Source: a virus. Taken from it: a stretch of 27,145 bases of DNA. The notes beneath the pieces were generated by a model. The model saw only the letters and a list, made by a program, of their open reading frames with translations. It was not told the origin of the DNA and made no database searches. Shown in pieces: positions 1 to 27,145 of this stretch. Position 1 is the first letter of the stretch, and each line of letters starts with the position of its first letter. The stretch spans positions 1 through 27,145 of the IMG/VR virus record IMGVR_UViG_3300005264_000274; one strand, written 5' to 3'. The position numbers were made by a program, and so were the translations under genes.

Positions 1-104
1 TTAATATTAGTTTAAGTTTAGCTATAAGTTAGTACTAATCTTCATTTAATATATATTAAATGAAGATTAGTACTAACTTATAGCTAAACTTAAACTAATA
101 TTAA
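1..104. repeat. Left hairpin telomere (perfect 104-bp palindrome)
   Basis: Bases 1-52 are the exact reverse complement of 53-104, checked base by base, with no loop. The centre is TTTAATAT|ATATTAAA at 52/53. A 34-bp inner part (36-69) recurs in the right-end palindrome and differs only in the two central bases. A perfect palindrome ending exactly at a contig end is what an assembly gives when reads run around a covalently closed hairpin, so the molecule probably ends at base 53. The motif CTAAACTTAA at 84-93 also occurs in the right telomere. The telomere function is inferred from the palindrome, its partner at the other end and the protelomerase gene. Confidence 0.9.
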
Positions 105-319
105 GATTAGTATTTCTCTGGGTTATTCACATAAAACTAATCTTAAGTATAGTTATTCACATATATCGATATTTAATAATTATTATTTCTTCTTATATTT
201 CAAATACTAATCTTAGTTATTCACACTAATTTTATAGTCAGTGTGAATAAAAACATAAAAACATATAAACATATAAATTAATTAAGCCCTAATTTTAGGA
301 TAAAATATAATTAATATGT
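105..319. promoter_or_regulatory. Left subtelomere: four DnaA-box-like sites and ACATATAAAC repeats
   Basis: No gene is seen here. TTATTCACA, which fits the DnaA-box consensus TTATNCACA, occurs at 123-131, 153-161 and 217-225, and in inverse form (TGTGAATAA) at 242-250. ACTAATCTTA occurs at 136 and 207, next to these boxes. The 17-mer ACATATAAACATATAAA at 261-277 is followed at 314-327 by an inverted partial copy, ATATGTTTATATGT. The right end carries the same set of motifs. The role (replication, telomere handling or segregation) is inferred. Confidence 0.65.
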
Positions 320-9725: not shown

Positions 9726-10183
9726 CAGCAGAACCAAATGCTGAGGGATTGGATGTTTTACAGCAAGAGCTGTATGAAAAAATTACTCAATTTTCTTTGA
9801 TTGACAATGAGGGTAACGAATATTATAAAAATAGTATTCATAGTTCTTTTTTTGATACGGATGGTGTTTTAACAGTAATCGTGCAAATTCCAAAAGATGA
9901 GCATTTTACAGTTTGGAATGCAGAACTTAGAGTGCTTAGTGATGATAATAAAATAATTACTAAAGTAGAAACACCTGCAATTCAATTTGTAAAAGGTGTA
10001 GGTGGTACTCAAACTGTAAAAATTGCTGTTAGTGGAAAGGCTAATTCAATTATTTATAAAGCAGATGATTACATAACAATAGCAGAACTTGAAGGTATGT
10101 ATATGGGAGCTATACAAGCTTTAACTGCCAAAGTTTTTAGATTAGAAAATATATTAATAAAAAAAGGAATTATAGATGTCTAA
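9713..10183 (+). CDS. Probable tail-fibre base protein
   Basis: The 156-residue product starts at TTG and overlaps the end of I. Its first 100 residues resemble the N-terminal domain of phage tail-collar fibre proteins: FSLIDNEGNEYYKNS, DTDGVLTVIVQIPKDEHF and ELRVLSDDNKIITKVETPAI are typical for the part that docks onto the baseplate. The last 30 residues are helical (AIQALTAKVFRLENILIKKG) and could form a trimeric coiled coil. It overlaps the next gene by 8 bases. In P2 one gene (H) carries base and tip; here the fibre seems to be made of several polypeptides. Confidence 0.6.
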   Translation: MEHITAEPNAEGLDVLQQELYEKITQFSLIDNEGNEYYKNSIHSSFFDTDGVLTVIVQIPKDEHFTVWNAELRVLSDDNKIITKVETPAIQFVKGVGGTQTVKIAVSGKANSIIYKADDYITIAELEGMYMGAIQALTAKVFRLENILIKKGIIDV

Positions 10184-10964
10184 AGCAGTAGAAGAATTAG
10201 TTTTAGAAGCTCAAGGGCTTTTAAAAAGATATGAGGGTGCAACTCTTTCTCTTGAAAATGATAGCAACAAATATAAACTTGAATTAAAAGAGCAATTAGA
10301 AGCTAGTATTTTGAGACTTCAAAATGAAATGAAAAAGTTAGATGTAAATGAGACTTTAGGTGCTATTGATAATAAGGCTCAAGAAGTTATTACACAACTA
10401 GAGAGTAGATTAGAAACAATTATTGCAGATATTGAAGAGGTTAGAGTTATATCTAAACCTATATTGAATGGTGTAGTAACTGTTGCAAATGAAGTTAATT
10501 TTACTTACACAGCATCTGCTGTATCTCATTTGGCAGATGGAAATGTAGCTTCTTTTGATTTTTATAAACCTGATGGCTCAAAAGAATCAATTTTAGCTTT
10601 AAATTCTAAAGCAGAAATGAGTTTTATTCCTACTGGAGAAATAGGAAATAAATTAGCATTAAAAGTTGTTGCAGTAGATAATTTAGGCAACAAATCAGAA
10701 CTTACAGAACTTGAAATTACTATTACTGATAACAATTTACCAGTAATGACAAATTTTAAACATACTCTTGAAAGTGAGTTGATAGGTGGTAAATCTTATG
10801 CTTTTTCTTTAGCAGGTGCAACTGATGTTGATGGAGATAATATCACTTACAAGATAGAAACTTCTGCAAATTTTGCAGTATCTAAAATAACAAATATTCT
10901 TGCAAATGAAGAGATAAGCATAACTACTCCAACGATGACAAAAAATACTAATTTTGAATCATAG
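10176..10964 (+). CDS. Tail-fibre shaft protein with coiled coil and Ig-like repeats (5' part of a split gene)
   Basis: Residues 1-95 are strongly helical and charged, likely a coiled-coil stalk (ATLSLENDSNKYKLELKEQL). Residues 97-185 and 190-262 look like two cadherin- or Ig-like beta domains (NEVNFTYTASAVSHLADGN; LAGATDVDGDNITYKI). The frame stops at TTT GAA TCA TAG. One base fewer after AATTTT would read on smoothly as NTNFNHSFVVPD into the glycine-rich adhesin that follows. The two pieces are therefore probably one fibre of about 530 residues, split by a single-base frameshift at about 10953-10956. Confidence 0.6.
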   Translation: MSKAVEELVLEAQGLLKRYEGATLSLENDSNKYKLELKEQLEASILRLQNEMKKLDVNETLGAIDNKAQEVITQLESRLETIIADIEEVRVISKPILNGVVTVANEVNFTYTASAVSHLADGNVASFDFYKPDGSKESILALNSKAEMSFIPTGEIGNKLALKVVAVDNLGNKSELTELEITITDNNLPVMTNFKHTLESELIGGKSYAFSLAGATDVDGDNITYKIETSANFAVSKITNILANEEISITTPTMTKNTNFES

Positions 10965-11772
10965 TTTTGTAGTGCCTGATAGAGTTTTTTCTATTTGTTC
11001 TGTTTTGGTAGGAGCAGGTCAAGGTGGTAATCGCACGTGGGAAAATAATGGTGGAAACGGTGGTGCATTAGCTTATGCAAATGGAATACCAGTAACACCA
11101 GGTGAAATTTTAACAATAATTGTTGGTGCAGGTGGTGCTCAAAATAGTAATGGAAACAATACGATTTTAAAAAGAAATTCAATAATTCTTTTTGAAGCAG
11201 AAGGTGGAAGAGCAGGTTCTGTAAGAGCTATTCCAAAAAATGGTTCAATAAGCTGTAAGGGTGGTCAAGGTGGTATTTCTAATAACCATTGTGCAGGTGC
11301 AGGTGCAGGTGGTTATGGTGATAACGAAAATGGTTCTGACGCTTGTGGTGGAGACGCTCATTATAACTCTAATAGTGGTTCTGGAGTTAAAGGTTCTGCT
11401 AGTGCAGGGTCTGGTTATAGCTCTTCAACTTATAGCTTCGGTGGTGGTGGTGGAGTAGGATTGAAAGGTCGCTCTAATAGTGGTGCTTCAGTCCAATATG
11501 ATCAAGGGAATATTTTTATTCATTATTATGGAGGTAAAAATGGTTCGGATGGCGATGATGGTGCAAGTAATACGAATAGTTCTGAATCTATAAATGGAAG
11601 AACTTATTATAGTGGTTGTGGTGGTCGCTTCGGTGGTGGCGGTGCAGGTGGTGGAACATCTTTATCTCAAAATTCTAACTTTTGTAAAGGTGGAAACGGT
11701 GGTGCTAGAATAATTTGGGGAGATGATAGAAGCTATCCTCTTAATGCCCAAGATGTAAAAGTGGAGGTATAA
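10954..11772 (+). CDS. Glycine-rich tail-fibre adhesin (3' part of a split gene)
   Basis: The frame opens at TTG 10954 and overlaps the preceding shaft frame by 11 bases; no good ribosome binding site precedes it. It begins HSFVVPDRVFSICSVLVGAG, the standard entry of phage glycine-rich tip domains, and goes on with dense GG motifs (GGNGG, GAGAGGYG, GGGGGVG, GGGGAGGG) to the end at residue 272. Such tips, as in S16 and related phage adhesins, fold as polyglycine-II sandwiches and bind outer-membrane targets. This should be the receptor-binding end of the tail if it is still made. Whether it is expressed without the shaft is unclear. Confidence 0.65.
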   Translation: MNHSFVVPDRVFSICSVLVGAGQGGNRTWENNGGNGGALAYANGIPVTPGEILTIIVGAGGAQNSNGNNTILKRNSIILFEAEGGRAGSVRAIPKNGSISCKGGQGGISNNHCAGAGAGGYGDNENGSDACGGDAHYNSNSGSGVKGSASAGSGYSSSTYSFGGGGGVGLKGRSNSGASVQYDQGNIFIHYYGGKNGSDGDDGASNTNSSESINGRTYYSGCGGRFGGGGAGGGTSLSQNSNFCKGGNGGARIIWGDDRSYPLNAQDVKVEV

Positions 11773-11773
11773 A

Positions 11774-12370
11774 ATGTCTAGAAAATTTGTTAAATTTAAA
11801 AATAATGAAATTAAATCGGGTTTAATTGATGAAAAAAACATAGTTGCTTTATACGGATATATTCCTACTAAAGAAGTATTAAAAAGTGATTCTTTAGTAG
11901 AAGTGATGGCTGTAGAAAAAGATTTGTCTGTTGGTCAATTTATTGAAATAAAAGGTTTGAAAGTTGAAGATGAAAAAGTAGTTTATGGCTATGAAATAAT
12001 AGAAGATTTAAATATTGCAAAACAATCAAAAATAGATAATTTAAATGCTTTATTTTTAGCAAAATCAACTAGACCAATTGTTGAAACCTCTTTAGGTTTT
12101 AGTGTTGATGGAAGTGAGACAGATTTAACTCTTTTTTCTAAAGGTAAAGATAGAAAAATTTTAACAGTTATGGATGCTTATGATAAATCGCATACTATTG
12201 AATTAGCTGATTATGATGTGATTATTAAAGCTATTGAGGATAATCAATTTTCTTTATTACAAGAAAAATGGTCTTTAAAAGCTCAGATAAATGCTTGTGC
12301 AACAGCTACTGAAGTAGATGCAATAGATATAAGTGGTGCTTTTGGTACTGCTGTTGCAGATGAGGACTAA
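11774..12370 (+). CDS. DUF4376-containing tail-fibre-associated protein
   Basis: The 198-residue product follows the adhesin by one base. Its C-terminal 110 residues (KIDNLNALFLAKSTRPI, GKDRKILTVMDAY, KWSLKAQINACATATEVDAI) match the DUF4376 pattern found at the ends of phage tail-fibre or fibre-assembly proteins. The N-terminal 85 residues are a small beta-rich domain. The place right after the tip gene is where P2 encodes the fibre-assembly chaperone G, so a chaperone-like or fibre-capping role is likely but unproven. Confidence 0.6.
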   Translation: MSRKFVKFKNNEIKSGLIDEKNIVALYGYIPTKEVLKSDSLVEVMAVEKDLSVGQFIEIKGLKVEDEKVVYGYEIIEDLNIAKQSKIDNLNALFLAKSTRPIVETSLGFSVDGSETDLTLFSKGKDRKILTVMDAYDKSHTIELADYDVIIKAIEDNQFSLLQEKWSLKAQINACATATEVDAIDISGAFGTAVADED

Positions 12371-12373
12371 GAG

Positions 12374-13660
12374 ATGCCAGGAATAAAAGTCTTAGATGTA
12401 AAAAATATTAGTCCTACTGCTGTTGTAATTACAAGTACAACTGTAATAGGTGTGGTTGGTACTGTTAGCTTTGATGGTGCTTTGGAAGATATAGAGAATG
12501 GTATCAAATCTTTAACAGATACAGATGCAGAAACATTGGCATTTAAAAAAATATTAGAAGATAAAAAAACTTTAATAGAAGAAACTAAAACTAAGCTTTT
12601 AGATACTTCTAAAGCAGGTCTTTTAAGATATTCAAATGCAGAGAAAGCTCTTGAAGTGTTTAGTGTTGTTGCAGGTACTCTTAGAGAAGATTTATATGAT
12701 ATTCAGATGCAAAGTGTGATGAGTCCAATCATTATCTCTCTAGTAGATATTAGTGCAGATGAAATTTCTAAAAGTCATTTAGATTTTTATGATAACCCTG
12801 CAATTAAAACAGATATTTTAAATGCTCTAGATAAGTTAAAAATGGCAAAAACTGCTTTAGCTACTAAAGTTCGTATTCCTATATGTGGTTGGTTCACACA
12901 TGATGATACTGTACTAGATAAGTTAAATAGTCTTATAACAAGTACAAAAATTATTTCAGTTGCAAATGCAAATCATAAAAATGTAGAAGATGCCCTTTTG
13001 TGGTTAAAACCTCAAGCATCGCTGAGACATTTAAGTGTGCCATTTTATCGCCGTGTATGGTCAATTTTTGATGATAAATATATCGAAAAGCCATACTCTG
13101 CAATCATCGCAGGTCATATCTCGTATTGGGATGCAAAGCATGGTGAGTTTGGTACTTGTTTCGATCACGCAAATCGTCCTATTTACAATATGGGAGATTG
13201 TCTTGTGCCTCTTTTTTACCAAGAAGGAGAAAACACTTGTGATGTAAATATTATTGTAAATAGTGGTGGTTGTTTGTGTATCAATGATGAGATAATGGGA
13301 AATATTTTATATAACTTTGAAACTCCTAGCAATGATACAAGATTTAACAAACTTGAAACAACTAGATTTTTTGACCTTATAAATGAAGAGTCTCAAAAAG
13401 CATTAGTGAAACACAAGCATAGACCAGTAACAGAAGTTCTTAATCTAGCTCGTGCAGATATAGAAGCTTTTTTACTTAAATCTAAAAAAGCAAGTGCATC
13501 AGTTGGATTTGATGTTTGGTGGTCTGATAGAAATAGCTCTACTGATATAAGTGCAGGTATATTATATATGGATTACAAAGCAGGTAACAATGTAGGTGTA
13601 AGAACTATTGTCTTACAAGGTTATGCAACAAATGAATACTACACAGTAGAAACAAAATAA
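12374..13660 (+). CDS. FI: Contractile tail sheath protein gpFI
   Basis: The 428-residue protein has the length and features of P2-type sheath subunits. It begins with PGIKVLDVKNISPTAVVITS and enters a domain with TTVIGVVGTV, typical of the sheath N-terminus. A block around 215-245 (ASLRHLSVPFYRRVWSIFDD) and the C-terminal part (SSTDISAGILYMDYKAGNN) follow, where the last strand-forming segment joins neighbouring subunits in the handshake of contractile sheaths. It is intact and follows the fibre genes, as FI does in P2. Presence of a sheath shows that the module derives from a myovirus tail and not a siphovirus. Confidence 0.82.
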   Translation: MPGIKVLDVKNISPTAVVITSTTVIGVVGTVSFDGALEDIENGIKSLTDTDAETLAFKKILEDKKTLIEETKTKLLDTSKAGLLRYSNAEKALEVFSVVAGTLREDLYDIQMQSVMSPIIISLVDISADEISKSHLDFYDNPAIKTDILNALDKLKMAKTALATKVRIPICGWFTHDDTVLDKLNSLITSTKIISVANANHKNVEDALLWLKPQASLRHLSVPFYRRVWSIFDDKYIEKPYSAIIAGHISYWDAKHGEFGTCFDHANRPIYNMGDCLVPLFYQEGENTCDVNIIVNSGGCLCINDEIMGNILYNFETPSNDTRFNKLETTRFFDLINEESQKALVKHKHRPVTEVLNLARADIEAFLLKSKKASASVGFDVWWSDRNSSTDISAGILYMDYKAGNNVGVRTIVLQGYATNEYYTVETK

Positions 13661-13671
13661 GGTGGTAAAAG

Positions 13672-14005
13672 ATGACTAAGACTGGTTTAGGAGCTAACTC
13701 TCAAATATTGAGTGGCTTATCGATTTTGATTGGTGGAAAAAATACTTTTGGATTTACTGGCGATGGCACAAAACAACCAGAATTTGAATTTGAATTAATT
13801 AACGAAGAGAGTACTGGCATGTGAGCTTTTAAAAATGAGTTCTGAAATAAAAGAAGGTGATGTCTTAAAGCGTAGTTTCGAGTTGAGAGTAGATATGTAT
13901 AGTGAAATTGTAAATGGTATTCCTACTATCGTTTATACAAGAAAACCATATCATTGTGTGTTGGGTGGAATAAATACTGCCTCAGATTTTAGTAGTAACA
14001 TCTAG
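13672..14005 (+). pseudogene. FII: Tail tube protein gpFII, internal deletion with frameshift
   Basis: The slot of the tail tube gene, right after the sheath, holds two short frames. The first (13672-13824, 50 residues) starts with GLSILIGGKNTFGFTG and ends EFELINEESTGM at a TGA. The second (13835-14005, 56 residues) begins SSEIKEGDVLKRSFELRVDM and ends in GGINTASDFSSNI, matching the end pattern of FII proteins (a KEVD-G-K-GE block, then a beta strand, then an N-G-D end). FII proteins have about 170 residues, so about 55-65 in the middle are missing and the frame is changed near 13822-13835. A tube cannot form from this product. The assignment rests on position and the two end patterns. Confidence 0.65.
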
Positions 14006-14016
14006 AAGGAAAAAAA

Positions 14017-14328
14017 ATGTCAAAAGAAGTTGAATATGATAAAAAAGATGTAGCTCTAAGTAGAGTTTATCCTTTTGGAAAAATAAAAAAAGCAAAAATA
14101 AAAGGTAAAGAAAAAGAAGTGACGGTGTTAACTGTCAATGAATTTACTGGTGTAGATGATGAAGCTTTGATGCGTAAAAAGAATCCAAGTGCTTATGATG
14201 AAATAGCAATAGCTTGTGGGTTAACGATAGATGAGTCTAAAAAACTAGCTCGTTGTGATGCACAACTTCTAAGTGAGGCAATGCAAGGTTTTTTGTTAGA
14301 GTCGGAGGAGATAGAACTTCTAGACTAG
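14017..14328 (+). CDS. E: Tail assembly chaperone gpE
   Basis: The 103-residue protein lies between the tube and tape-measure slots, the place of gpE in P2-like phages. VTVLTVNEFTGVDDEALMRK and YDEIAIACGLTIDESKKLA fit phage tail assembly chaperones. The frame ends LLESEEIELLD. A slippery heptamer lies 10 codons before the stop, so ribosomes can also make the longer E' product (listed separately). The chaperone keeps the tape-measure protein soluble and guides tube growth; it is not part of the finished tail. Confidence 0.72.
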   Translation: MSKEVEYDKKDVALSRVYPFGKIKKAKIKGKEKEVTVLTVNEFTGVDDEALMRKKNPSAYDEIAIACGLTIDESKKLARCDAQLLSEAMQGFLLESEEIELLD

Positions 14329-14471
14329 AAGCTTATAGCTTAGTTACAGAATTTTTCTTTCTATCAGTAAATGAACAAAAAAAATTACTAGTTAGAGAGT
14401 GGTTAGAGTATTTTGAGGTTGCTATTAAAAAGCAAAAGCAAAAAATGGAATTAATGAATTTAAATCATTAA
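14017..14471 (+). CDS. gpE' (-1 frameshift extension of gpE)
   Basis: After the heptamer T TTT TTG at 14289-14295 a slip to the -1 frame reads VRVGGDRTSRLEAYSLVTEF and continues through SVNEQKKLLVREWLEYF and a lysine-rich end to the TAA at 14469-14471. The -1 frame has no own start codon in a good place and is open across the join, as in P2 E/E' and lambda G/GT. The P2 frameshift uses the same TTTTTTG sequence. The total is about 150 residues. The 70 bases that follow up to the HU-like gene hold a short frame (SMTIGWQSCKKIKKND) that may be a further remnant. Confidence 0.72.
14289..14295 (+). promoter_or_regulatory. Programmed -1 frameshift site TTTTTTG
   Basis: The zero frame is GGT TTT TTG TTA, giving the X-XXY-YYZ form T-TTT-TTG. 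The -1 frame remains open for 58 codons downstream. A purine-rich GGAGGAG follows at 14303-14309. I did not find a clear stimulatory hairpin by eye. Confidence 0.7.
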
Positions 14472-14549
14472 AAAAAATAGACCCTATTTCTATGACAATA
14501 GGTTGGCAAAGCTGTAAAAAAATAAAAAAAAATGACTGAGGAGTCAAAT

Positions 14550-14879
14550 ATGAAAGCAGTAAATACATTAAACGAAAAAGAGCAAAGAGAAGCTGTACAT
14601 AAAGCTTTAACAGAAAAAGGTATTAAAGTTACTAAAACTTTAGTTGACCAAGTAATGGACACTCAAAACGATTTATTATTCAATGCTCTAAGAAGCAACA
14701 CAGGTGTAAAACTTCAAGGTGTAGGAACTTTAGAAGTTCGCACTCATTCAGAAAGAAGTTTTAAAGTACCAGATGGAAAAGGTGGATTTAGAGAAGGTGT
14801 TTCACCTGCAGGTCTTCATGTTAAATTTGTTGAAGCTGACTCTCTTCTTACTGCAATGAATGCACCAATCGAAGCTTAA
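14550..14879 (+). CDS. HU/IHF-family DNA-bending protein
   Basis: The start is chosen at ATG 14550 because GAGGAG lies 6 bases before it; this gives 109 residues. The protein follows the HU fold: N-terminal helices (KEQREAVHKALTEKGIKVTKTLVDQVMDTQ), a beta arm region (GVKLQGVGTLEVRTHSERSFKVPDGKGGF) and a C-terminal strand-helix. It differs from HU in the arm, where GFREGVSPAGLHVKF replaces the usual proline-tipped PATGE block, as in many phage HU-like proteins. It lies inside the tail operon and is followed by an intrinsic terminator, so it may be expressed well on its own. Likely roles are DNA compaction or a cofactor for telomere resolution or transcription; this is open. Confidence 0.75.
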   Translation: MKAVNTLNEKEQREAVHKALTEKGIKVTKTLVDQVMDTQNDLLFNALRSNTGVKLQGVGTLEVRTHSERSFKVPDGKGGFREGVSPAGLHVKFVEADSLLTAMNAPIEA

Positions 14880-14896
14880 TAAAGTTTTGGTGTCTT

Positions 14897-14936
14897 AGGC
14901 TAAGGGAAATTCTCCCTCTTAGCCTTATCTCTTTTT
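14897..14936 (+). terminator. Rho-independent terminator after the HU-like gene
   Basis: AGGCTAAG (14897-14904) pairs with CTTAGCCT (14918-14925), extended inside by GGA/TCC. TATCTCTTTTT follows on the plus strand. This should separate the gpE/HU part from the tape-measure part, so the latter needs read-through or its own promoter. Confidence 0.75.
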
Positions 14937-14947
14937 AAAATCTTAAT

Positions 14948-15015
14948 GTGTCAGAGCTGCTATAAAAATATGTGACTGGTCCAGGCATAAGAAGTGTGAC
15001 TCAACAGGATTAAAT
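14948..15015. repeat. 24-bp-period GTGAC repeat, copy before the tape-measure gene
   Basis: Units starting GTGTCAGAGCTGC, GTGACTGGTCCAGGC and GTGACTCAACAGG are spaced exactly 24 bp. The first resembles the first unit at 18619, the second the second unit at 6325-6393, and the third the last unit at 18643. It lies in the gap between terminator and gene T. Confidence 0.7.
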
Positions 15016-15059
15016 TAAAATTTTAAAAATAGATAAAAATTAAAAAAAAAGGTTAAATT

Positions 15060-17531
15060 ATGGCTCTTGGTTCTGTAAGTCTTAACATGGTGTGGAATCC
15101 TGCCATAAAAGGTTCAAACTTTCTTCAAGCAAGTGTAAAAGGCATACATACCTATGCACAGAAAGTTACAAAAGCTAATCTTTTACAAGCAACAAAATTT
15201 CCTCTTCTTAATAGAAATATCAAACAATTAGATAATCATTTAGGTCGCATAAGAAGTCAAACTGCAAAGATAAGTGCTAATCCCATTCGCTTAGATGTTC
15301 AAACAAGTAGAACTAGTTTAAAAGAAGCTAGAAAAGATATAACTGCAATAGAACACGATGCAAAACAATTTGCCTTTTGGACTAAAAAAGCAAATGAGAA
15401 TTTAAATAAGCCAGTTAAAGAATTTCCATATAAAAAAATTATTCAGAAGCCTATACAAAAGTCTACTCAAAAAGCACAAATAGGTACTGGTGCAATGGTT
15501 GGTGCTGTTGGTGCTGTTGGAATTATGACACTTCCTTTTAAGGCTTCTATTGATTTTGAAAGTAATATGGCAGATGTTAAAGCTCTTACTAAAAATATAA
15601 CAGCTGAGGATTTTACTCTTTTAACAGCAAAAGCTAAAAAACTTGGCTCAACTACAGAGTGGTCAGCTTCTCAAAGTGCAATAGGTATGACTTATTTAGC
15701 TAAAGCAGGTTTTAATGCTAAACAACAGCTTGGTGCGATGGGAGGTGTTCTTGGGTTAGCTACTGCAGGAAGTGTTGATTTAGGAACAGCGAGTGATATT
15801 AGTTCAAATATTTTAAGTTCTTTTAGCATAAAAGCTGAAAAAATGGGAATGGTATCAGATGTTTTAGCTAAAACTTTTTCAACTTCAAATACTGATCTTC
15901 TTATGCTTGGCGAAACAATGAAATATACAGCACCAATTGCTTCTGGTCTTGGTGTTGGTTTGAGCGAAGTATCTGCATTGGCAGGTAAACTTGGTGATGT
16001 TGGTATTCAGGGTTCAATGGCAGGAACTTCTCTTAGACAAATGTACACAAGACTATCTGCACCTCCTACGGAAGCAAGAGATGCATTAAATGCTCTTGGT
16101 GTTTCAGTTTTTGATGCTAAAGGAAAATTTAAAGGTATGCCAAATGTAATTGGCGAACTTAATGCTTCTATGGTTGGTTTAACTGATGAGCAAAAAGTTA
16201 AAAAGTTAAAGCCAATTTTTGGAATGACAGCAATTAGTGCAGGTGTTGCTCTTTTAAAAGTAGGTAGAAAAGGTTTACTTGAATATCAAGCAACATTAGA
16301 TGCATCAGGTGGAACTACTAAAAAAATTCAAACGATTAAACTTGATACAACAAAAGGACATTTTAAACTACTTGCATCAGCGATGGAGGGCTTAAGTATT
16401 AGTGCAACAACTAATTTACTTCCTACTATAAAAATGGTCTCAAACACTTTAAAGAGTGGTGCTGAAAAATTGGATGCATTTACTCAAAAATTTCCAAACG
16501 CTTCTAAGTGGATATTTGGACTTGGTACTGCTTTTATAGTTGGTTCTGTAGCTTTAGCAGGTTTTGGATTTATAGCATCAGGAGTTGGTGCAAGTTTAGC
16601 TCTTTTAGCTTCTCCAGTTGCAGGTGTAGTTTTAGGTGTTATGGCTTTAGCAGGTGCAGGTGTTTATCTTTATAATAAATTTGAATTTATAAAGTTAGGA
16701 ATTGATAATTTATTTAGTGGGATAATGACTGCAGTATCGCCAACTATTACTAATTTAAAAAATAGTTTTGGTGGATTGTTTTCTAGTATAGGTGGACTTT
16801 TTGCCTCTATTTCTCCTCTTTTTTCTCTAGTAGGTTCTGCTTTAAATTATGTAGGTATAAATGCTTCTAGTGTTGGTGGTCTAATAGGTTCTGCTTTTGG
16901 TTTAGTTCTAACTCCTATAATATGGGTTGTACAAGCTCTTACATGGGTTATAGATATGGGTGCAATGGTTGCTAATGGTTGGACTAAAATAGGAACTGTT
17001 GCAGGTATAGCGTGGACTTTAACAGTTAATAGAATTAAATCCCCTTTTGTAAGTCTATTCTCTTGGTTAGAAGCTAAATTTCAATCGGTTATGGGTTTTG
17101 TAAATAAAGTAAAAAATATAGCTTCTAGTGCTACAGATATGAGTAGTAAAGTAAAAGAAAAAGCATCTAATTATTGGAGTGAAACTAAAAACTTTTTTGG
17201 CTTTAAAAAAGAGTCATTAAAAGCTAGTGTTCCTGCAAATAATTTAGAATATAAAAAAAATAAATCTTTCATTGCCCCTTTAAGCGAGACTCGTGTTCCT
17301 ACTGTTCCAATAGAGAGTGTATCTGCTGTTACATCAAATAAAATAGAAGAAACTAAAACTCAAAATAATGCAAATAATGCAAAAAATATAATCCAAAATA
17401 TAAATAATCATATTACTGTAAAAAGTGAAAATGGAATAATTGACGAGGAGGATTTATATGAAAAATTGAAGCGTGTAAATAAAAGAATCGCAGATGAAGA
17501 ACAAGATTTGCAAATGCAAGATATAGCTTAA
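15060..17531 (+). CDS. T: Tail tape-measure protein gpT
   Basis: This 823-residue protein sets tail length and passes into the target envelope. Residues 20-140 are helical. The conserved phage tape-measure domain runs from about 163 (IDFESNMADVKALTKNI) through GSTTEWSASQSAIGMTYLAKAG, with MAGTSLRQMYTRL near 320 and the KIFG-like KPIFGM block near 382. Hydrophobic membrane-like segments follow at about 480-540 (FGLGTAFIVGSVALAGFGF and LLASPVAGVVLGVMALAG), and further GG/SA-rich segments to about 640. The end is helical and charged (EEDLYEKLKRVNKRIADEE). At the usual 1.5 Angstrom per residue this fits a short contractile tail of roughly 120 nm. It is the longest intact gene in the window. Confidence 0.88.
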   Translation: MALGSVSLNMVWNPAIKGSNFLQASVKGIHTYAQKVTKANLLQATKFPLLNRNIKQLDNHLGRIRSQTAKISANPIRLDVQTSRTSLKEARKDITAIEHDAKQFAFWTKKANENLNKPVKEFPYKKIIQKPIQKSTQKAQIGTGAMVGAVGAVGIMTLPFKASIDFESNMADVKALTKNITAEDFTLLTAKAKKLGSTTEWSASQSAIGMTYLAKAGFNAKQQLGAMGGVLGLATAGSVDLGTASDISSNILSSFSIKAEKMGMVSDVLAKTFSTSNTDLLMLGETMKYTAPIASGLGVGLSEVSALAGKLGDVGIQGSMAGTSLRQMYTRLSAPPTEARDALNALGVSVFDAKGKFKGMPNVIGELNASMVGLTDEQKVKKLKPIFGMTAISAGVALLKVGRKGLLEYQATLDASGGTTKKIQTIKLDTTKGHFKLLASAMEGLSISATTNLLPTIKMVSNTLKSGAEKLDAFTQKFPNASKWIFGLGTAFIVGSVALAGFGFIASGVGASLALLASPVAGVVLGVMALAGAGVYLYNKFEFIKLGIDNLFSGIMTAVSPTITNLKNSFGGLFSSIGGLFASISPLFSLVGSALNYVGINASSVGGLIGSAFGLVLTPIIWVVQALTWVIDMGAMVANGWTKIGTVAGIAWTLTVNRIKSPFVSLFSWLEAKFQSVMGFVNKVKNIASSATDMSSKVKEKASNYWSETKNFFGFKKESLKASVPANNLEYKKNKSFIAPLSETRVPTVPIESVSAVTSNKIEETKTQNNANNAKNIIQNINNHITVKSENGIIDEEDLYEKLKRVNKRIADEEQDLQMQDIA

Positions 17532-17548
17532 AAAAATAAAGGAAAAAA

Positions 17549-18064
17549 ATGAAAAAAATGTTTTTAATAATGGCACTAGTTGCTAGTTTGTTTGCTTGGG
17601 ATGAAGCAAAGGTAAAATATGTAATTGACGGAGATACTCTCATGTTGCAAAAAACAGATTTTAAACCATTTAAAGTTCGTTTAATTGCTCTAGATACTTT
17701 TGAAACAAAGATGAATCATAGAGTGTTTAAACAACTTGAGACTCTTAAAATGATACATCCAAATAACCCTAATCATAAAGATAAATATATACATTCAGTT
17801 AAAAAAGTTCTTTCACTTGGTTATATGGCAAGAGATTATGTAGTTGATAATTATTTGGGAAAAGTTGTTAAATATTATAGTTATGGCAAAGATAAATACA
17901 AGAGAGAACTTGTGTGGATTGACGGTCTTAACTTTGGTCTTATGCGTATGGGCTTGGCTGTATATTATCCAAATAATAACATTTCTCCTGATAGAAAAAG
18001 ATATTTAAATGAGTTGAGCAAAGATGCCAACTTAAATAAAAGAGGAATTTACAGAAGGAAATAA
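17549..18064 (+). CDS. Secreted staphylococcal-nuclease-like DNase
   Basis: The 171-residue protein has a signal peptide (MKKMFLIMALVASLFAW) and a thermonuclease fold. Catalytic residues of S. aureus nuclease are all found in order: VIDGDTL (Asp29 equals D21), KVRLIALDTFETK (Arg44, Asp49, Thr50 and Glu52 equal R35, D40, T41 and E43) and DKYKRELVW (Arg119 equals R87). It lies 17 bases after T and 1 base before U, thus inside the tail operon, where P2 has no such gene. The enzyme should cut DNA or RNA in the periplasm or outside the cell. It may protect the host from transformation or superinfection, like phage-borne Dns nucleases of Campylobacter, but that parallel is an inference. Confidence 0.85.
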   Translation: MKKMFLIMALVASLFAWDEAKVKYVIDGDTLMLQKTDFKPFKVRLIALDTFETKMNHRVFKQLETLKMIHPNNPNHKDKYIHSVKKVLSLGYMARDYVVDNYLGKVVKYYSYGKDKYKRELVWIDGLNFGLMRMGLAVYYPNNNISPDRKRYLNELSKDANLNKRGIYRRK

Positions 18065-18065
18065 T

Positions 18066-18467
18066 ATGGCAAGTTTAGAGAGTTTAATAAATGGTCTTAG
18101 TATGGGTAAGTTGGGTGATTTTGAATTTTATATGCATCAAAATGATTATAAAGAAATAGCTAAAAATCTAACTGCAACTTTTGGAAGTTTAAAACCTGCA
18201 AAAGGTCAAGAACAACTAAATAAAAATGGTGGTTATTCTCAAGCTATTTCCTTAAAAGGTGTTTTGGTTGTACAGCCTTTAGAAGCTTTAAAAACTTTAG
18301 AAGATTATACAAAAAATCGTGAGCCTATTCGTTTTACTACTCTAGATACAGATATAGAAGTTATTATAAACTCTCTAAATACTACTCAAAAAATGTTTTT
18401 AGATAATGGAAAATTTACTGTACAAAATTATTCCCTTTCTTTAAAAGAGATCTATGATGCAATATAA
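18066..18467 (+). CDS. U: Tail terminator-type protein gpU
   Basis: This 133-residue protein matches the P2 gpU family: a short N-terminal strand with GDFEFYMHQNDYKEIAKNL, the conserved LKPAKGQEQLNKNGGYSQAI turn, where gpU proteins typically read Q..GPGADTI.L.G, and the end KFTVQNYSLSLKEI. It overlaps gene X by 14 bases. gpU is needed to complete the tail tip away from the baseplate. The frame is intact. Confidence 0.82.
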   Translation: MASLESLINGLSMGKLGDFEFYMHQNDYKEIAKNLTATFGSLKPAKGQEQLNKNGGYSQAISLKGVLVVQPLEALKTLEDYTKNREPIRFTTLDTDIEVIINSLNTTQKMFLDNGKFTVQNYSLSLKEIYDAI

Positions 18468-18681
18468 GTGTAGTAGAGGGGATAGAATAGACTTAATAGT
18501 GTTAAAACACTATGGTCACTTAAACTATCTAAATGATGTAATAAGTGTAAATAAGCAACTTTTAAAAAAATCTATGATTTTAGAATTTGACGAGACAATA
18601 GTTCTACCTGACTTTAGTGTGACAGAGCAGCATAATCCAAGTGTGACTCAACAGGCAAAAAAAAGAGAACCATTATGGTAG
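18454..18681 (+). CDS. X: Tail protein gpX (LysM-like) with repeat-derived C-terminus
   Basis: Seventy-five residues with two possible adjacent start codons (18454 or 18457). The first 55 residues (KCSRGDRIDLIVLKHYGHL and VISVNKQLLKKSMILEFDETIVLPDF) form a LysM-like fold normal for gpX, which binds tail or peptidoglycan parts. The last 21 residues, SVTEQHNPSVTQQAKKREPLW, come mostly from the dispersed GTGAC repeat, inserted in frame just before the KKREPLW end. The family usually ends soon after the LPD segment with a short acidic or W-ending tail, so the repeat seems an insertion that kept the reading frame. Its stop overlaps the next start. Confidence 0.78.
   Translation: MMQYKCSRGDRIDLIVLKHYGHLNYLNDVISVNKQLLKKSMILEFDETIVLPDFSVTEQHNPSVTQQAKKREPLW
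18617..18656. repeat. 24-bp-period GTGAC repeat inside gene X
   Basis: Two units, GTGACAGAGCAGCATAATCC... and GTGACTCAACAGGC, have heads at 18619 and 18643. They match the minus-strand copy at 3176-3214 with one base difference over the shared span. This near-identity, in two unrelated genes, points to recent transfer of the sequence. Confidence 0.75.
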
Positions 18682-19539
18682 AAGATATTATAGAAGTTTT
18701 TATAAATGGTGTAATTGTTAAAAGTTTTTCCTGATTTTGCAAAACCTGCTCCTGATTCAAAAATGGAAGTGATTTTTAAAACTTTACAAAAAGATGAAGT
18801 GATAGAAAAATTAGAATGTGGGCTCTTTCATGTTCAAGCTGTAACTAGAACTGATAATCAAGCTCTTAGCATAACTGCAACTGGTGTGCAATTTAATGAA
18901 AAACAAAAAGAAAAATTGTCTCATCATTATGTAGATACTAAACTCTCAAGCATCGTTAATCTTGTTGCAGATAGATTAGGTCATAAAGTCAAATTTCAAA
19001 CAGTAGACCCTCAAATAAAATCACTTAATCAAACAAATGAAAGTGATATTAATTTTCTTGAGCGAATAGCTAAAGATTACAATGTTTTATTTTCTATCAA
19101 GAATGACATTATCTATTTTGTAAATAAAAATGATGATGCATTACCTATAAGTAAGATTGATGTGAGTTCGTGCAGTAGTTCTTCTATTAAACATTCCACT
19201 AAAACTTATTATAAAAGTTGTGAAGCTTCTTTTCACTCAGTTGATGAAGCAAAAATTTTAAAAGTTACAGTTGGCGATGGTACACCTGTAATAAAAATAA
19301 AGAGTGCTTATAAAGATAAACTCGACGCAAAAATAAAAGCTCAAGCAAAGTTAGATGCTATCAATAAAGGCATAGTAAAAGGATCTCTTTCTCTAAAAGG
19401 AAAATCAGTTTATGCAGGTACTAAAGTTGAGTTATTTAATACTTATGAGGGCGAAGATGACGGTGTATTTAGCGTTGAGAGTTGTACTCATAATTGGAAT
19501 AGTCGAGGTTGGACTACCAACCTCGAAGTTGAAAATTAA
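18675..19539 (+). pseudogene. D: Late tail protein gpD, N-terminal deletion and frameshift
   Basis: The natural start is ATG 18675, which overlaps the stop of X, but this frame reads MVEDIIEVFINGVIVKSFS and stops at 18732-18734. The rest of gpD is open in another frame from about 18715 to 19539. It has PAPDSKMEVIFK, CGLFHVQAVTRTDNQALSI, LNQTNESDINFLERIAKDY (the gpD signature) and TYEGEDDGVFSVESCTHNW near the end. About 25-30 residues between the two parts, compared with P2 gpD, seem missing. A TTG at 18715 could start a shortened product of 274 residues, but no good ribosome binding site is seen. gpD caps the baseplate hub under gpV, so full function is doubtful. Confidence 0.7.
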
Positions 19540-19551
19540 GGAGGTTAAAAA

Positions 19552-19947
19552 GTGGAAATAGGATTTATAGAAGAGCGAGTTCTAACTTCGGTTGGCAAAG
19601 ATGGATTAATTAGAACGATGGAATCTGATTTGACTTACTTTACAAAAATAGTTCAAGCTCAACTTATACTCGTTCCTATTGGTTTTGATACGGATTTGGG
19701 GAGTATTCCTCAGTTTTTACAAGCAATTTTTCCAAAAGACGGAGAAGCATTATTTGCTTATATTTTGCATGATTATTTATACTATACGGGTCTATTTACA
19801 CGCTCAGAATCTGATGATATGTTAAGAGAAGCGATGAAGTCTCTAAATGTTAGTTGGTGGAGAATAGTAGCTGTTAGAAATGGTCTACGCATAGGTGGTT
19901 GGAGAGCTTGGAATAAGCACAGAAAAGCAAATGGAGATATAAAATGA
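19552..19947 (+). CDS. DUF1353 protein
   Basis: The start is GTG after a strong AAGGAGG site; 131 residues. It follows DUF1353: VPIGFDTDLGSIPQFLQAIF (the G-tD-aSiP motif), ALFAYILHDYLYYTG (the HDyLY motif) and DMLREAMKSLNVSWWR. This family is common in phages near tail and lysis genes. Conserved D and H residues suggest a metal site, but no activity is established for it. It directly follows gpD and overlaps the next small gene by ATGA, so it belongs to the same late operon. Confidence 0.82.
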   Translation: MEIGFIEERVLTSVGKDGLIRTMESDLTYFTKIVQAQLILVPIGFDTDLGSIPQFLQAIFPKDGEALFAYILHDYLYYTGLFTRSESDDMLREAMKSLNVSWWRIVAVRNGLRIGGWRAWNKHRKANGDIK

Positions 19948-20096
19948 GTCAAAATGAGATTTTAGAAGAGTTAAGAAACAAAAGACAAAAGTGTACAGTC
20001 TACACTAGAGTAATGGGTTATCATAGACCAGTTACCAGTTTTAACCTTGGCAAAACTGGTGAACACATAGAAAGAAAACAATTTAAGGAAGGCTGA
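19944..20096 (+). CDS. Glycyl-radical-domain-like microprotein (NrdD C-terminus)
   Basis: This 50-residue gene starts at ATG 19944 in a four-base overlap with the DUF1353 stop and ends at TGA 20094-20096. The product has CTVYTRVMGYHRPVTSFNLG (residues 17-36), which matches the C-terminal glycyl-radical segment of anaerobic ribonucleotide reductase NrdD, where the glycine in RV-GY carries the radical. The rest of NrdD and its four-cysteine zinc site are absent; only one Cys remains. It is followed two bases later by the lipoprotein gene. It might be a spare radical-bearing subunit like YfiD/GrcA for pyruvate formate-lyase, or an old fragment that took on another task. Confidence 0.65.
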   Translation: MSQNEILEELRNKRQKCTVYTRVMGYHRPVTSFNLGKTGEHIERKQFKEG

Positions 20097-20097
20097 A

Positions 20098-20346
20098 ATG
20101 AAATTATTTATATTATGTGTGCTTAGTTTATTTTTAGTAGGTTGCACGAGTGCAGGAAGTAGTGTTTATAACAAAGGTAAAGTTATATATGTAGGTGCTA
20201 AAACAGCTTATGTTGAATTAGATATAAAAAGTGAAAAATTAGAGGTCTTAGATGAAGTTGTTGTAACTTTTGATAAAGCTCGAACTGCTGTAATAGAATC
20301 TAAAAAAAAAGTGGATGCAAATACTTCACTTCCTCAAGAATTGTAG
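20098..20346 (+). CDS. Small lipoprotein, possible outer-membrane spanin
   Basis: The 82-residue product has a clear type II signal peptide, MKLFILCVLSLFLVGC, with the lipobox LVGC (lipidated Cys16). The mature part of 66 residues has a beta-like segment (KVIYVGAKTAYVELDI) and a helical part (DEVVVTFDKARTAVIESKKK). Its place, between DUF1353/NrdD-like and the endolysin, is that of Rz1-like lysis lipoproteins, but it lacks the proline-rich middle common in Rz1. No partner inner-membrane spanin is next to it, unless the coiled-coil protein at 6811-7095 fills this role. Function is inferred from position only. Confidence 0.65.
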   Translation: MKLFILCVLSLFLVGCTSAGSSVYNKGKVIYVGAKTAYVELDIKSEKLEVLDEVVVTFDKARTAVIESKKKVDANTSLPQEL

Positions 20347-20369
20347 GGATTGAATGTTGGTGGTAAAAA

Positions 20370-20774
20370 ATGGCTTTTAAAAAAGGTAAAAGAACTATAA
20401 AAAAGCTTTCAACGGCTGATTATAAATTTACTCTTCTAGTAGATGAAGTTCTTAAATATATTGACATAGGTGTTTATGAAAGTTCTCGTACTTTAGCAAG
20501 ACAGCGAAAAATGTATAGAAAAGGTTTGTCGCAACTAGACGGTGTAAAGAAAAAATCAAAGCATCAGATAAGTAAAAAGTTTCCAAAAGCTAGAGCAATT
20601 GACTGCTTTCCTTACGAGAAAGGTCATAATAGTTTTGATGGTTCAGATAAAAGTAAATTGATGTTTTATGAAATGAATTGGCATTTTTATAGAGCTTCAC
20701 TAAAACTTAATATTCCGATAAGGCAAGGATATTTGTTTAGCTTCAAAGATATGCCTCATCAAGAATTAGCTTAA
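20370..20774 (+). CDS. M15-type peptidoglycan endopeptidase (endolysin)
   Basis: The 134-residue protein belongs to the phage L-alanyl-D-glutamate (M15C, VanY-like) peptidases. The zinc ligands can be seen: His65 in KSKHQ, Asp78 in ARAIDCFPY and His130 in FKDMPHQEL, with catalytic Asp127. SSRTLARQRKMYRKG precedes them, as in the family. The part between IRQGY and FKDMPH is only four residues long (YLFSF region); relatives usually have about a dozen more there, with a GxDW element, so a small in-frame loss is possible. There is no signal peptide, so release needs a holin. It ends the tail and lysis operon. Confidence 0.8.
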   Translation: MAFKKGKRTIKKLSTADYKFTLLVDEVLKYIDIGVYESSRTLARQRKMYRKGLSQLDGVKKKSKHQISKKFPKARAIDCFPYEKGHNSFDGSDKSKLMFYEMNWHFYRASLKLNIPIRQGYLFSFKDMPHQELA

Positions 20775-21785: not shown

Positions 21786-22898
21786 TTACAACAAATTGTA
21801 ACTTTCACAGTCACATGACAAGCTATTATCTTCTTTTGAAATCTCATCTAATTTTTCAAACTTCAATAAATCACTTCTTTCTTTAGCATTTAAAATTTTT
21901 GTTGTTAAGACTTCAACATCAAACTGCATTGATTGTGGAACGGATAAAATGCCATTTATATATTTTGAAAAATTACTCTTGTTTGGAATGTAACCAGATT
22001 GTATAAATTTATATCTAAGTGTTTTTTGACCTATTTTTTTTGACATCATTCTCAGGGATCTAGTGTGAAAAGTGTAATAGTTAAAATTGTACTTATCTTT
22101 AGCATAATTTACTATCTCTCTAATAGGTGCAAAGCCATCTGGAAAGGTGCTATTTCTTCTAAAGAAAAATGTAGGTACTTTATCAGTATAAGATTTAGAT
22201 ACCTCACTCTCTACTTCCTCCATCTGTTTTATTTTATCTTCACTCATTAATGAAATTGATTTTAAATCAGCTTGAAAACATTCATCACAACCAACTCTTT
22301 TATTACCATTAAAATAAGATTGTGGAATTCCCCAAGTTTCATCAAGAAAAGAATAAACATCGGTTTCAGTCCAATCAGCAATAGGTTGATATATGGTAAA
22401 TCCCCAATCTTTATAAGAGTAATATTCTTTGTCTGGTGTATCTATCCTATCTTTTGACTCATCTCTTCTTTTACCTACTAAACTAATGACCTTTAGACCT
22501 TTAGAATTTAAACTTTTATAATACTCAACTGCAGGTATCATCTTGAGTAATTGAGTACAAGTTTTAGCCATTCGTGTAGGAAATGCTTTTTTAGATTTTA
22601 TTAAATCAGTCATTCCATTTGGATATTTAGGATTAGTCAAAGTTAGGAACTCTATATCAAACTCTTTTAATCTATCTTTGATGGTTTCAATCTCCTGCAT
22701 AGTCTCATCTTTTTCCCAACCTGTATCGCAAAACACTACTTTAATTTGAGAGGGTTTAACTATTTTAAGAAGTAGTGGTAAAGAAACTATAAGAGTTGTT
22801 TTTGAGTCTTTACCTCCACTAATACTTATGACAAATACAGTTTTGTCTGTTGGTGGATTTTGTGTTAATAATTTAGTTAATATTTTTGATTTTTTCAA
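21786..22898 (-). CDS. PAPS-reductase-family PP-loop protein
   Basis: The 370-residue protein starts at TTG 22898 behind AAAGGAAA. It has a PP-loop ATP site, SISGGKDSKTT at about 25-35, then VVFCDTGWEKDET, KTCTQLLKMIP (Cys114), SLVGKRRDES at 139-148 and YQPIADWTETDVYSFL at 170-184, all typical of the PAPS reductase / DndC-like family. CDEC at 204-207 and a CDC near the end could bind a metal or an iron-sulfur cluster. Such proteins are frequent in phages and are often next to methyltransferases; DndC uses this fold in DNA phosphorothioation, but the Dnd partners are absent. Adenylation of a nucleic acid, nucleotide or sulfur carrier is likely, with the substrate unknown. The start overlaps the stop of a zinc-ribbon frame. 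Confidence 0.75.
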   Translation of the reverse strand: MKKSKILTKLLTQNPPTDKTVFVISISGGKDSKTTLIVSLPLLLKIVKPSQIKVVFCDTGWEKDETMQEIETIKDRLKEFDIEFLTLTNPKYPNGMTDLIKSKKAFPTRMAKTCTQLLKMIPAVEYYKSLNSKGLKVISLVGKRRDESKDRIDTPDKEYYSYKDWGFTIYQPIADWTETDVYSFLDETWGIPQSYFNGNKRVGCDECFQADLKSISLMSEDKIKQMEEVESEVSKSYTDKVPTFFFRRNSTFPDGFAPIREIVNYAKDKYNFNYYTFHTRSLRMMSKKIGQKTLRYKFIQSGYIPNKSNFSKYINGILSVPQSMQFDVEVLTTKILNAKERSDLLKFEKLDEISKEDNSLSCDCESYNLL

Positions 22899-25335: not shown

Positions 25336-26748
25336 TCATTTAGCCTTTTTAGTCATATAATGCTCTGAGGCTGTCAATCTCTCTTTAGAAATAACATGAC
25401 CTAATACTTTAGATTTAAAAGATTGTTCGGTGTTCCAAGTTCCATCTACTTCGTCACTATAATTATAAATAATATCTGAGAAAATTTCTCTTGCATCGTG
25501 GAAAGTGAAGTTAGTTCCAGTTAATCTTTTAAATGCATTATTAAGAACATTGTTGTATTTGCTATTTACTTGAGTATTTGTCATATTTTTAGTGCTCAAT
25601 TCATTTTGTATATAAGAGACTAATTCTGATAGTAATTCAAAATCATCATCCAAAGAGTATGCTTCAACACTTGCATTTTCTTCGCCTTTTTTAGCTACTC
25701 CCTCGTAGTACCAAACATTTTCTTTTTTAACAATTTTAAGAGTTTTAATAATCTCTATTTGTCTTCTACCTGTAACTAAGGCAAGATAAGTAGCATATAC
25801 ATAAGCATTAGCTCTTTCTTGAGTTTGTTGACGAGTTTTTGAAATATTGCCTGTGTTAATTTGGTCTTTTAGTCTAGCGATAATTGCAACTAGGTAGTCT
25901 TGGTCATAAGTATCTCTCTCAATATGTTTTTCTTTAGTAGATGCGATTACTTTTGCTTGAGAGGCTTCATATAGTCCTGCAGGAGGAATTAGTAGAGCTA
26001 AAGACATATCTTCATGCTCACCGCCAACTTCTTTAACTATTTTTCTCATTTCAGAATAATAAACTGATGTAGTTCCAAGAGTACGACCTCCAATCCAACA
26101 ATAAGGGATGGCTTGAATAATTGCTATTTGCACATCTCTTTTATTTTTAGAAGCTTGTAATTGCTCTCTAAAGAGCTTTTTAACCTCAGCAGGTTCAGTT
26201 ACACCATAAACAGCTTTTATAAGCTCTGTAGTGATGTTTTGAGCCTCAGTGCTTCGTCCATCTGTTGATGCGGCTTTTTGTGTGGCTTTAAGATTAGTAT
26301 TTTCTTTAGTGAGTGTTTCTATTTGTTGCATTAGAACCTTAGTAACCTCATCATTGTTATTTTGCGACTCATCTTCAAAGATAAACCACTCATCTATATT
26401 AGTAGTCATAATGTTGAAAGGTTTTTTATCGCTTTGTACTACTTGACCGTTATCAACGAAAATATAAACACCTGCTTTCATATCCTCTGTATGTACTCGT
26501 TCTCCTGCAAACATAGCACTTAATGCCTCAGCTTTGCTTAATTTAGCACCTTTAACAGCTTTAGGCTCTTCCCATATCGTCCACTCGTTAATGTCAGTAG
26601 AACTCATATTGAATGGTTCATCTTCATTATTTAGAATCTGCCCATCTACTATATGTATATAAGCTGTTTCACTCCAATGGGGAGCTGTAAGTATGCTTCC
26701 TGCAAATATTGCATTTACTGCTTCAAGTTTATTTAATATCTTTTTCAT
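25336..26748 (-). CDS. Protelomerase (hairpin telomere resolvase) with duplicated N-terminal domain
   Basis: The 470-residue protein has the active-site set of telomere resolvases: TGRRQIEI (about 326-333, catalytic Arg), the AKKG lysines (353-354), HDAR (417-420), LGH (449-451) and Tyr464 in SEHYMTKK. TelN/TelK show the same order (ATGRRSAEI; KDSR; LGH; then Tyr). His451 to Tyr464 is 13 residues, compared with 9 in TelN. Residues 1-62 and 70-126 are two copies of a small domain, both with FAG, Y-I--VD(N)GQ, PFN and I-EW-I-E. A helical linker (135-160) joins them to the core. TelN has 631 residues, TelA and ResT about 445, so the core here is compact. It lies beside the right palindrome and should cut and reseal both palindromes after replication. 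Confidence 0.85.
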   Translation of the reverse strand: MKKILNKLEAVNAIFAGSILTAPHWSETAYIHIVDGQILNNEDEPFNMSSTDINEWTIWEEPKAVKGAKLSKAEALSAMFAGERVHTEDMKAGVYIFVDNGQVVQSDKKPFNIMTTNIDEWFIFEDESQNNNDEVTKVLMQQIETLTKENTNLKATQKAASTDGRSTEAQNITTELIKAVYGVTEPAEVKKLFREQLQASKNKRDVQIAIIQAIPYCWIGGRTLGTTSVYYSEMRKIVKEVGGEHEDMSLALLIPPAGLYEASQAKVIASTKEKHIERDTYDQDYLVAIIARLKDQINTGNISKTRQQTQERANAYVYATYLALVTGRRQIEIIKTLKIVKKENVWYYEGVAKKGEENASVEAYSLDDDFELLSELVSYIQNELSTKNMTNTQVNSKYNNVLNNAFKRLTGTNFTFHDAREIFSDIIYNYSDEVDGTWNTEQSFKSKVLGHVISKERLTASEHYMTKKAK

Positions 26749-27041
26749 GAGTTTCCTTTCTTTTTTTTAGCTGATGAAAGTATATCTTATATAAGCTTAA
26801 ACTAATCATAACATACAAACATATAAACATATAAACTATATAAAACCCAATAAATAGAGCTTAAAACAGTAAATATGTTTATATGATATTAGGGATATGT
26901 TTCTTAATTATAAAAAGCTAAGATTAGTTATTCACACCCTATAAAATTATTATGTGAATAACTAATCTTAGTATTTATAAGTTTTGATGATATTTATTTA
27001 GTTATTCACATAAAACTAAACTTAAAAAATAGTTATTCACA
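26749..27041. promoter_or_regulatory. Right subtelomere: DnaA-box-like sites and ACATATAAAC repeats
   Basis: No gene is seen here. The 17-mer ACATATAAACATATAAA at 26819-26835 is identical to 261-277 and in the same orientation; an inverted partial copy, ATATGTTTATATG, follows at 26873-26885, with similar spacing to the left end. TTATTCACA lies at 26928-26936, 27002-27010 and 27033-27041, and inverted at 26953-26961. ACTAATCTTA or ACTAAACTTA lies next to them. This region also holds the promoter of the protelomerase gene, so its binding protein could regulate telomere resolution. Confidence 0.65.
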
Positions 27042-27145
27042 ATTTAAAGATTTTTTAAGTTTAGTTTTTTTTTAAATAATCTTCATTTAATAATTATTAA
27101 ATGAAGATTATTTAAAAAAAAACTAAACTTAAAAAATCTTTAAAT
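27042..27145. repeat. Right hairpin telomere (perfect 104-bp palindrome)
   Basis: Bases 27042-27093 are the exact reverse complement of 27094-27145. The centre is TTTAATAA|TTATTAAA. The inner 34 bp (27077-27110) equal the left core at 36-69 apart from the central two bases (AT here, TA at left). Outside the core the two telomeres diverge but share CTAAACTTAA, at slightly different distances from the centre (offset 29 here, 31 at left). The physical end is probably base 27093. Confidence 0.9.

Follow-up and report, generated by a model that had tools for sequence, protein, structure and literature searches.

Telomere resolvases join a conserved core to accessory domains that are varied and poorly understood. 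The N-terminal domains of TelA and ResT are autoinhibitory and anneal single-stranded DNA (PMC11271964, PMC7861564), and that of TelA is dispensable for resolution, its autoinhibition being lifted by divalent metal (PMC11271964). Tad2 is a homotetramer composed of V-shaped dimers (PMC12043709), whose gcADPR pockets, as summarized in the same review, are formed by the loop beta1-beta2, the loop beta3-beta4, the strand beta4, the loop beta4-alpha3 and the helix alpha3, and whose dinucleotide site is an insertion between beta2 and beta5 (PMC12043709). Here, we describe a predicted telomere resolvase in which two copies of a domain of predicted Tad2 fold stand ahead of the core.

The window, that is the whole stretch of DNA analysed in this work, comprises 27,145 nt (positions 1 to 27,145 of IMGVR_UViG_3300005264_000274). 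The perfect palindromes found at both its ends can be explained by the assembly having read through two closed hairpin telomeres, and judging from these ends the window is apparently complete, a linear molecule of 27 kb with a hairpin at each end and two distinct telomeres, which have about 16 bp in common beside the centre (AATCTTCATTTAATA) and are mostly different elsewhere. A palindrome with 26-bp arms was also found at the contig end of one relative. The motif GTTATTCAC occurs seven times in the window, always at 250 bp or less from an end, when 0.15 sites are expected, and similar sites lie upstream of the resolvase gene in several relatives. The motif resembles the Helicobacter DnaA box (TTATTCAC), and its clusters beside the telomeres may serve as an origin of the DnaA type or as an operator. 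At 1044-1099 and 1228-1280, between the primase gene and the left end, lie short direct repeats (AAAAAACACAT units) and, at a distance of 150-200 bp, an array that is in part complementary to them; these arrays may be an origin or a transcription stop. The features, in order of position, are the following:

1..104, left telomere, a 104-bp perfect palindrome with its centre at 52/53 (palindrome search)
122..224, plus strand, three DnaA-box-like GTTATTCAC sites adjoining the left telomere
25336..26748, minus strand, predicted telomere resolvase (protelomerase) of 470 aa (ribosome-binding site, Pfam, fold, profile, catalytic residues)
25339..25917, minus strand, predicted tyrosine-recombinase-type catalytic domain, residues 278-470 (fold, catalytic residue alignment)
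25918..26205, minus strand, putative N-core or DNA-clamping region, residues 182-277 (the TelA match starts at model residue 182)
26206..26370, minus strand, putative helical linker, residues 127-181 (low-confidence model helix at 131-159, heptad scoring)
26371..26541, minus strand, Tad2-like domain copy 2, residues 70-126 (repeat; model mean pLDDT 83.6)
26563..26736, minus strand, Tad2-like domain copy 1, residues 5-62 (repeat; model residues 1-62 with pLDDT 79-91)
26927..27040, four DnaA-box-like GTTATTCAC sites between the resolvase gene and the right telomere
27042..27145, right telomere, a 104-bp perfect palindrome with its centre at 27093/27094 (palindrome search)

The resolvase is read from the minus strand, with an ATG at 26748, a stop ending at 25336 and a ribosome-binding site ahead of the start (AAAGGAAACTC-ATG), and the plus strand across the same region contains many stops. 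The Pfam model ResT-TelK_cat (PF16684) matched the protein with 24.2 bits (E 2.7e-5) and did not reach its curated cut-off of 27; therefore, the assignment to the family is based instead on the fold and the catalytic residues. In structure comparisons, residues 182-470 of the model matched TelA (Z 15.9), TelK (Z 15.5) and ResT (Z 11.5), and Foldseek recognized a resolvase fold with an E value of 3e-8, while a nine-row resolvase profile run against solved sequences retrieved ResT (E 2e-6) and TelK (E 1e-5). An alignment of the enzyme with eight phage or plasmid resolvases and one Campylobacterota homologue revealed the full catalytic R-K-(H/K)-R-H-Y set (R328, K353, H417, R420, H451 and Y464). 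Together, these results predict that the window protein is a telomere resolvase of the ResT/TelK family. Its catalytic domain ends six residues past the nucleophile Y464, and no C-terminal domains of the TelN/TelK type were found in it. The heptads of the linker, as scored, are clear right after the domain in the single-copy relatives described below and weaker in the window resolvase. Weak matches to BrxA and Cas5 models, placed within the catalytic part of the resolvases, were discarded as chance.

The original prediction held that the N-terminal part of this resolvase is a tandem duplication, and our analyses show that the duplication is real and that its boundaries had been placed correctly. 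BLASTP of residues 1-64 against 65-129 aligned residues 5-61 with 70-126 over 57 columns without a gap (37% identity, 68% similarity, E 2e-15), and the Smith-Waterman score between the copies was 117, far above the 5000 shuffles (mean 22, sd 4, maximum 44). Both copies are also matched, with 45 and 41 bits, by a profile built from the single-copy domains of the relatives. An assembly artefact was rejected as the source of the doubling, since the copies differ at 63% of their residues. As the two copies stand together in the domain tree, on long branches and with a support of 98/97, the duplication most likely arose inside the lineage of the window.

The likeness of each copy to Tad2/DUF2829 proteins, which had been suggested from a weak resemblance, was borne out as far as the fold is concerned. 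Copy 2 modelled alone (mean pLDDT 83.6) matched all ten Tad2/AcrIIA7 entries compared with Z scores of 6.8-8.1, and the next fold scored 2.6. In the full-length model, residues 3-60 matched ModTad2 with a Z score of 7.7 (rmsd 2.1 over 58 residues), apo-ModTad2 with 7.3 and SPO1 Tad2 with 7.1. These models were built on shallow alignments of 9 and 13 rows. The top eight Foldseek matches of copy 2 were all Tad2 chains, with E values of 0.2-0.7 that are not significant alone, and its best matches in a library of viral structures were small phage proteins, several of them named Tad2-like or DUF2829.

At the sequence level, the PHROG 6670 profile matched the doubled region with an E value of 2e-13 (2.3e-13) and single copies with values from 3e-12 to 7e-5. 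The Tad2-like family PF11195 gave in-register matches with each of the six single-copy relatives tested, of 13.5-19.2 bits (E 0.002-0.11) and all under the curated cut-off of 25 bits; it ranked first in five of the six, an unrelated model standing marginally above it in L011. No PF11195 match was listed for the two window copies, and a Pfam scan of the whole window protein returned no Tad2 model, its matches being ResT-TelK_cat below the cut-off and others due to chance. Among three free-standing phage relatives, two likewise matched PF11195 weakly. Profile-profile comparison with hhalign linked the resolvase domains to the compact phage proteins of PHROG 6670 (97% over 57 columns) and these to canonical DUF2829 (81% over 58 columns); the pooled set reached canonical DUF2829 at 90%, a score attained by none of 200 column shuffles, and the resolvase domains alone at 19% over their first 37 columns, still above all 200 shuffles. 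The domain profile found no Tad2 among PDB sequences, where the best match was glycogen synthase (E 0.89), and neither TelA nor TelK, the ResT N-domain lying outside that set; thus, the link to Tad2 emerges only when profiles are compared with profiles or structures with structures. The case for it is carried by the eight Foldseek matches, the gap in Z scores and the chain of profiles, from which the N-terminal copies are predicted to be compact members of the Tad2/DUF2829 fold superfamily.

The original prediction had asked for a conserved ligand pocket along with a fold match, and for this pocket no support was obtained. In the canonical DUF2829 set (13 proteins from phages and Campylobacterota genomes, retrieved with a canonical query, which stresses its motifs), R-x-G-W-N-G and W-x-x-S-x-x-D-x-x-A-x-D are present in all 13 proteins and the final W in 12. 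All the resolvase domains lack RxGWNG and WxxSxxDxxAxDW, the asparagine and glycine behind the first tryptophan being gone together with the S-D-A pattern, and in window copy 2 the first tryptophan itself is replaced by methionine. Some short Pfam members (L026, L030 and L032) are likewise without the NG. The two tryptophans are 31 residues apart in the resolvase domains vs. 45-76 in the canonical proteins, a spacing by which the beta2-beta5 insertion is absent, and the models of the domain have no helix ahead of the last strand. Even with the canonical motifs lost, the domain may bind some other ligand. For AcrIIA7/HgmTad2, which has the same fold, PDB entries describe bound cADPR and cGG. 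On these sequence grounds, a sponge of the known Tad2 kind is unlikely, and the missing motifs and insertion make a regulatory or assembly module more likely than an immune decoy. The original prediction was therefore a real observation in which the fold was rightly recognized and the function over-interpreted.

When the single window protein was used as a query, no relatives were found among viral and genome contigs; they were reached via the tail sheath gene, then by a three-row alignment, further alignments and the domain query. The related resolvases come from viral contigs, several of which measure 24-27 kb, and from two genome bins, whose labels read Helicobacteraceae and Campylobacterales. 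All nine relatives with a complete N-terminus (L005/L012, L006/L013, L009, L010, L011, L016, L050, L051 and L052) carry a single copy of the domain and belong to tail-bearing linear elements or MAGs of Campylobacterota. This copy reads approximately MVKNTALTKLxxGxKVRAxxWDxxKYIxxNKxGQIVDNxGKxFNxMTAKEKxWExYKEP, and across nine aligned copies only five columns (I, G, Q, N and W) are invariant. Two further relatives (L014 and L015) are uninformative on doubling, their contigs ending inside the domain, and L017 begins past it. The resolvase at L015:1-1070 shows a frameshift in mid-gene, with two open frames meeting near 564-582.

Among the resolvases compared, only that of the window has the doubled domain, and an extra scan of close relatives for doubling gave no case; with the domain profile, no free-standing copy was found elsewhere in the window or in the contigs of the relatives. 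A scan of 397 Campylobacterota genomes yielded no additional resolvase of this clade and one divergent resolvase, L019, without the Tad2-like domain. This second Campylobacterota telomere resolvase (L019:213-1103) is very divergent, has about 290 aa and lies on an 11-kb contig. The domain was also not found in TelN, TelK, PY54, VP882, phiHAP-1, HY01, ST2-1pr and a Pseudomonas corrugata plasmid resolvase, which makes nine resolvases without it, L019 included; TelN, TelK, PY54, VP882 and phiHAP-1 scored 1.1 bits at most. That TelN-type resolvases lack the domain agrees with the original prediction, which had been made without knowledge of the single copy carried throughout the clade. Since a single copy is normal there, the real finding is broader than the doubling: a domain of predicted Tad2 fold is a fixed part of one resolvase family and is doubled in the window enzyme. 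In the open-licence papers searched, we found no description of a fusion between a Tad2-like domain and a telomere resolvase, nor of telomere resolvases of this kind in Campylobacterota.

The element itself encodes contractile-tail proteins (baseplate, sheath, tape measure and hub), a CI-like repressor, a primase/helicase, ParA, an endolysin, methyltransferases and a PAPS-reductase-like protein; among the families searched, no capsid, portal or terminase was recognized in the window. The contractile tail module occupies 6811-20774 in a molecule that is seemingly complete at both ends, and a sheath gene is present on related contigs of 26.1, 26.6 and 26.7 kb as well; all these may belong to one Campylobacterota family of tailocin-like elements borne on linear plasmids. 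Within this module, the tail tube gene (13672-14002) appears to be disrupted: its parts match residues 1-50 and 99-158 of the L004 homologue in two different frames, and the roughly 48 codons that should separate them are missing. The baseplate J-like gene (7935-8931) is split over two overlapping frames and lacks a stretch present in L004, a second apparent internal deletion that may be real decay or an assembly fault. The peptide VTEQHNPSVTQQA is encoded at 3175-3213 (minus strand) and 18619-18657 (plus strand) by nearly identical, inverted DNA, once where the primase/helicase begins and once close to the end of the tail X protein, and is absent from these places in L004. The PAPS-reductase-like gene (21786-22898, minus strand), with model matches to BrxP, SspD and DndC, adjoins two methyltransferase genes, and these genes are possibly a DNA modification or defence island.

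Considering the fold, the missing pocket and the position of the domain, we propose, with a probability somewhat under one half, that it is a compact, pocket-less Tad2-fold module that serves the assembly or control of the linear-element resolvase of Campylobacterota. The capacity of the Tad2 fold for self-association would have been reused for contacts between resolvases and for their control, the domain being placed ahead of the helical linker, where the equivalent N-domains of TelA and ResT restrain the enzyme. Given that Tad2 is a homotetramer, the doubled domain could allow one resolvase dimer to present four Tad2-fold units, a number that relatives with one copy would reach only with two dimers. 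An accessory arm that binds DNA at sub-telomeric repeats, similar to the small N-domain of lambda integrase, would agree with the motifs repeated beside both telomeres and with the positive net charge of the domain in the relatives (+2 to +5); however, the window copies are acidic (-6 and -2), which makes a common DNA-binding role doubtful, and only Tad2 entries stand above Z 2.6 among the folds listed, others being conceivable beyond that list, so that we consider such an arm improbable. Binding of a host protein, either Mre11-Rad50 (SbcCD), with protection of the hairpin ends, or a defence protein, which would be blocked, is unlikely: TelN does shield hairpins from E. coli MR through species-specific contacts outside its C-terminal domains (PMC12624138), and the PDB describes AcrIIA7, which shares the fold of the domain, as inhibiting type II CRISPR-Cas, but TelN itself has no Tad2-like domain and no evidence of a partner was obtained here.

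The remaining readings take the domain as a receptor. An anti-defence or ligand-sensing role, for which we found no positive evidence, keeps a small share of the probability. A sensor of small nucleotides that turns telomere resolution on or off, coupling end formation to the state of the host or to induction, would fit a nucleotide-binding protein fold placed where TelA has its regulatory N-domain, with its metal-relieved autoinhibition (PMC11271964), but no known pocket is conserved and the five invariant columns may be structural only, which renders this reading quite unlikely. Taken more widely, a nucleotide-gated resolvase, whose Tad2-fold sensor would either control hairpin formation or neutralise a signal at the telomere, the ligand perhaps being an immune or host signal, is still unlikely. 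Least probable, and by our estimate very much so, is that the resolvase carries a working anti-defence sponge, for the gcADPR/hisADPR of Thoeris or for the dinucleotides of CBASS. The Tad2 fold, the mobile, phage-like nature of the replicon and the frequency of canonical DUF2829 proteins in phages (374 records) speak for it; RxGWNG, WxxSxxDxxAxDW and the dinucleotide-binding beta2-beta5 insertion are absent, even the first tryptophan is lost from copy 2, and sponges act by stoichiometry (PMC12043709), which would be an odd job for an enzyme.

In wider terms, a fold familiar from anti-defence proteins of phages is here predicted to be fixed on the resolvases of a clade of Campylobacterota linear elements. 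Either this fold also serves purposes other than immune evasion, or immune evasion is built into end formation, and a protein labelled 'Tad2-like' from its fold alone need not be a signal sponge. With the Tad2/DUF2829 proteins (PF11195; SPO1 Tad2, ModTad2, SptTad2 and AcrIIA7/HgmTad2), the domain has in common a fold of about 57-60 residues, with Z scores reaching 8.1 and rmsd values of 1.7-2.2. These proteins have 88-104 residues with GWNG, SxxDxxAxDW and the beta2-beta5 insertion, whereas the resolvase domain has about 60 and lacks all three; unlike Tad2, it is fused to an enzyme and, in the window, doubled. Its closest sequence relatives are the PHROG 6670 proteins (e.g., Lactobacillus phage LP65 orf13 and Lactobacillus phage P1 g072), free-standing proteins of 124-131 aa with a C-terminal half of their own and of unknown function. 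As to the enzyme, the catalytic residues and the context of hairpin telomeres are common to TelN, TelK, PY54 Tel and the VP882/phiHAP-1 protelomerases, and the C-terminal domains of TelN and TelK are missing from the window enzyme. TelA of Agrobacterium, its best fold match, and ResT of Borrelia are of comparable length (442 and 449 aa vs. 470 in the window), and both have a separate N-domain ahead of the N-core, in the same position as the Tad2-like domains of the window resolvase.
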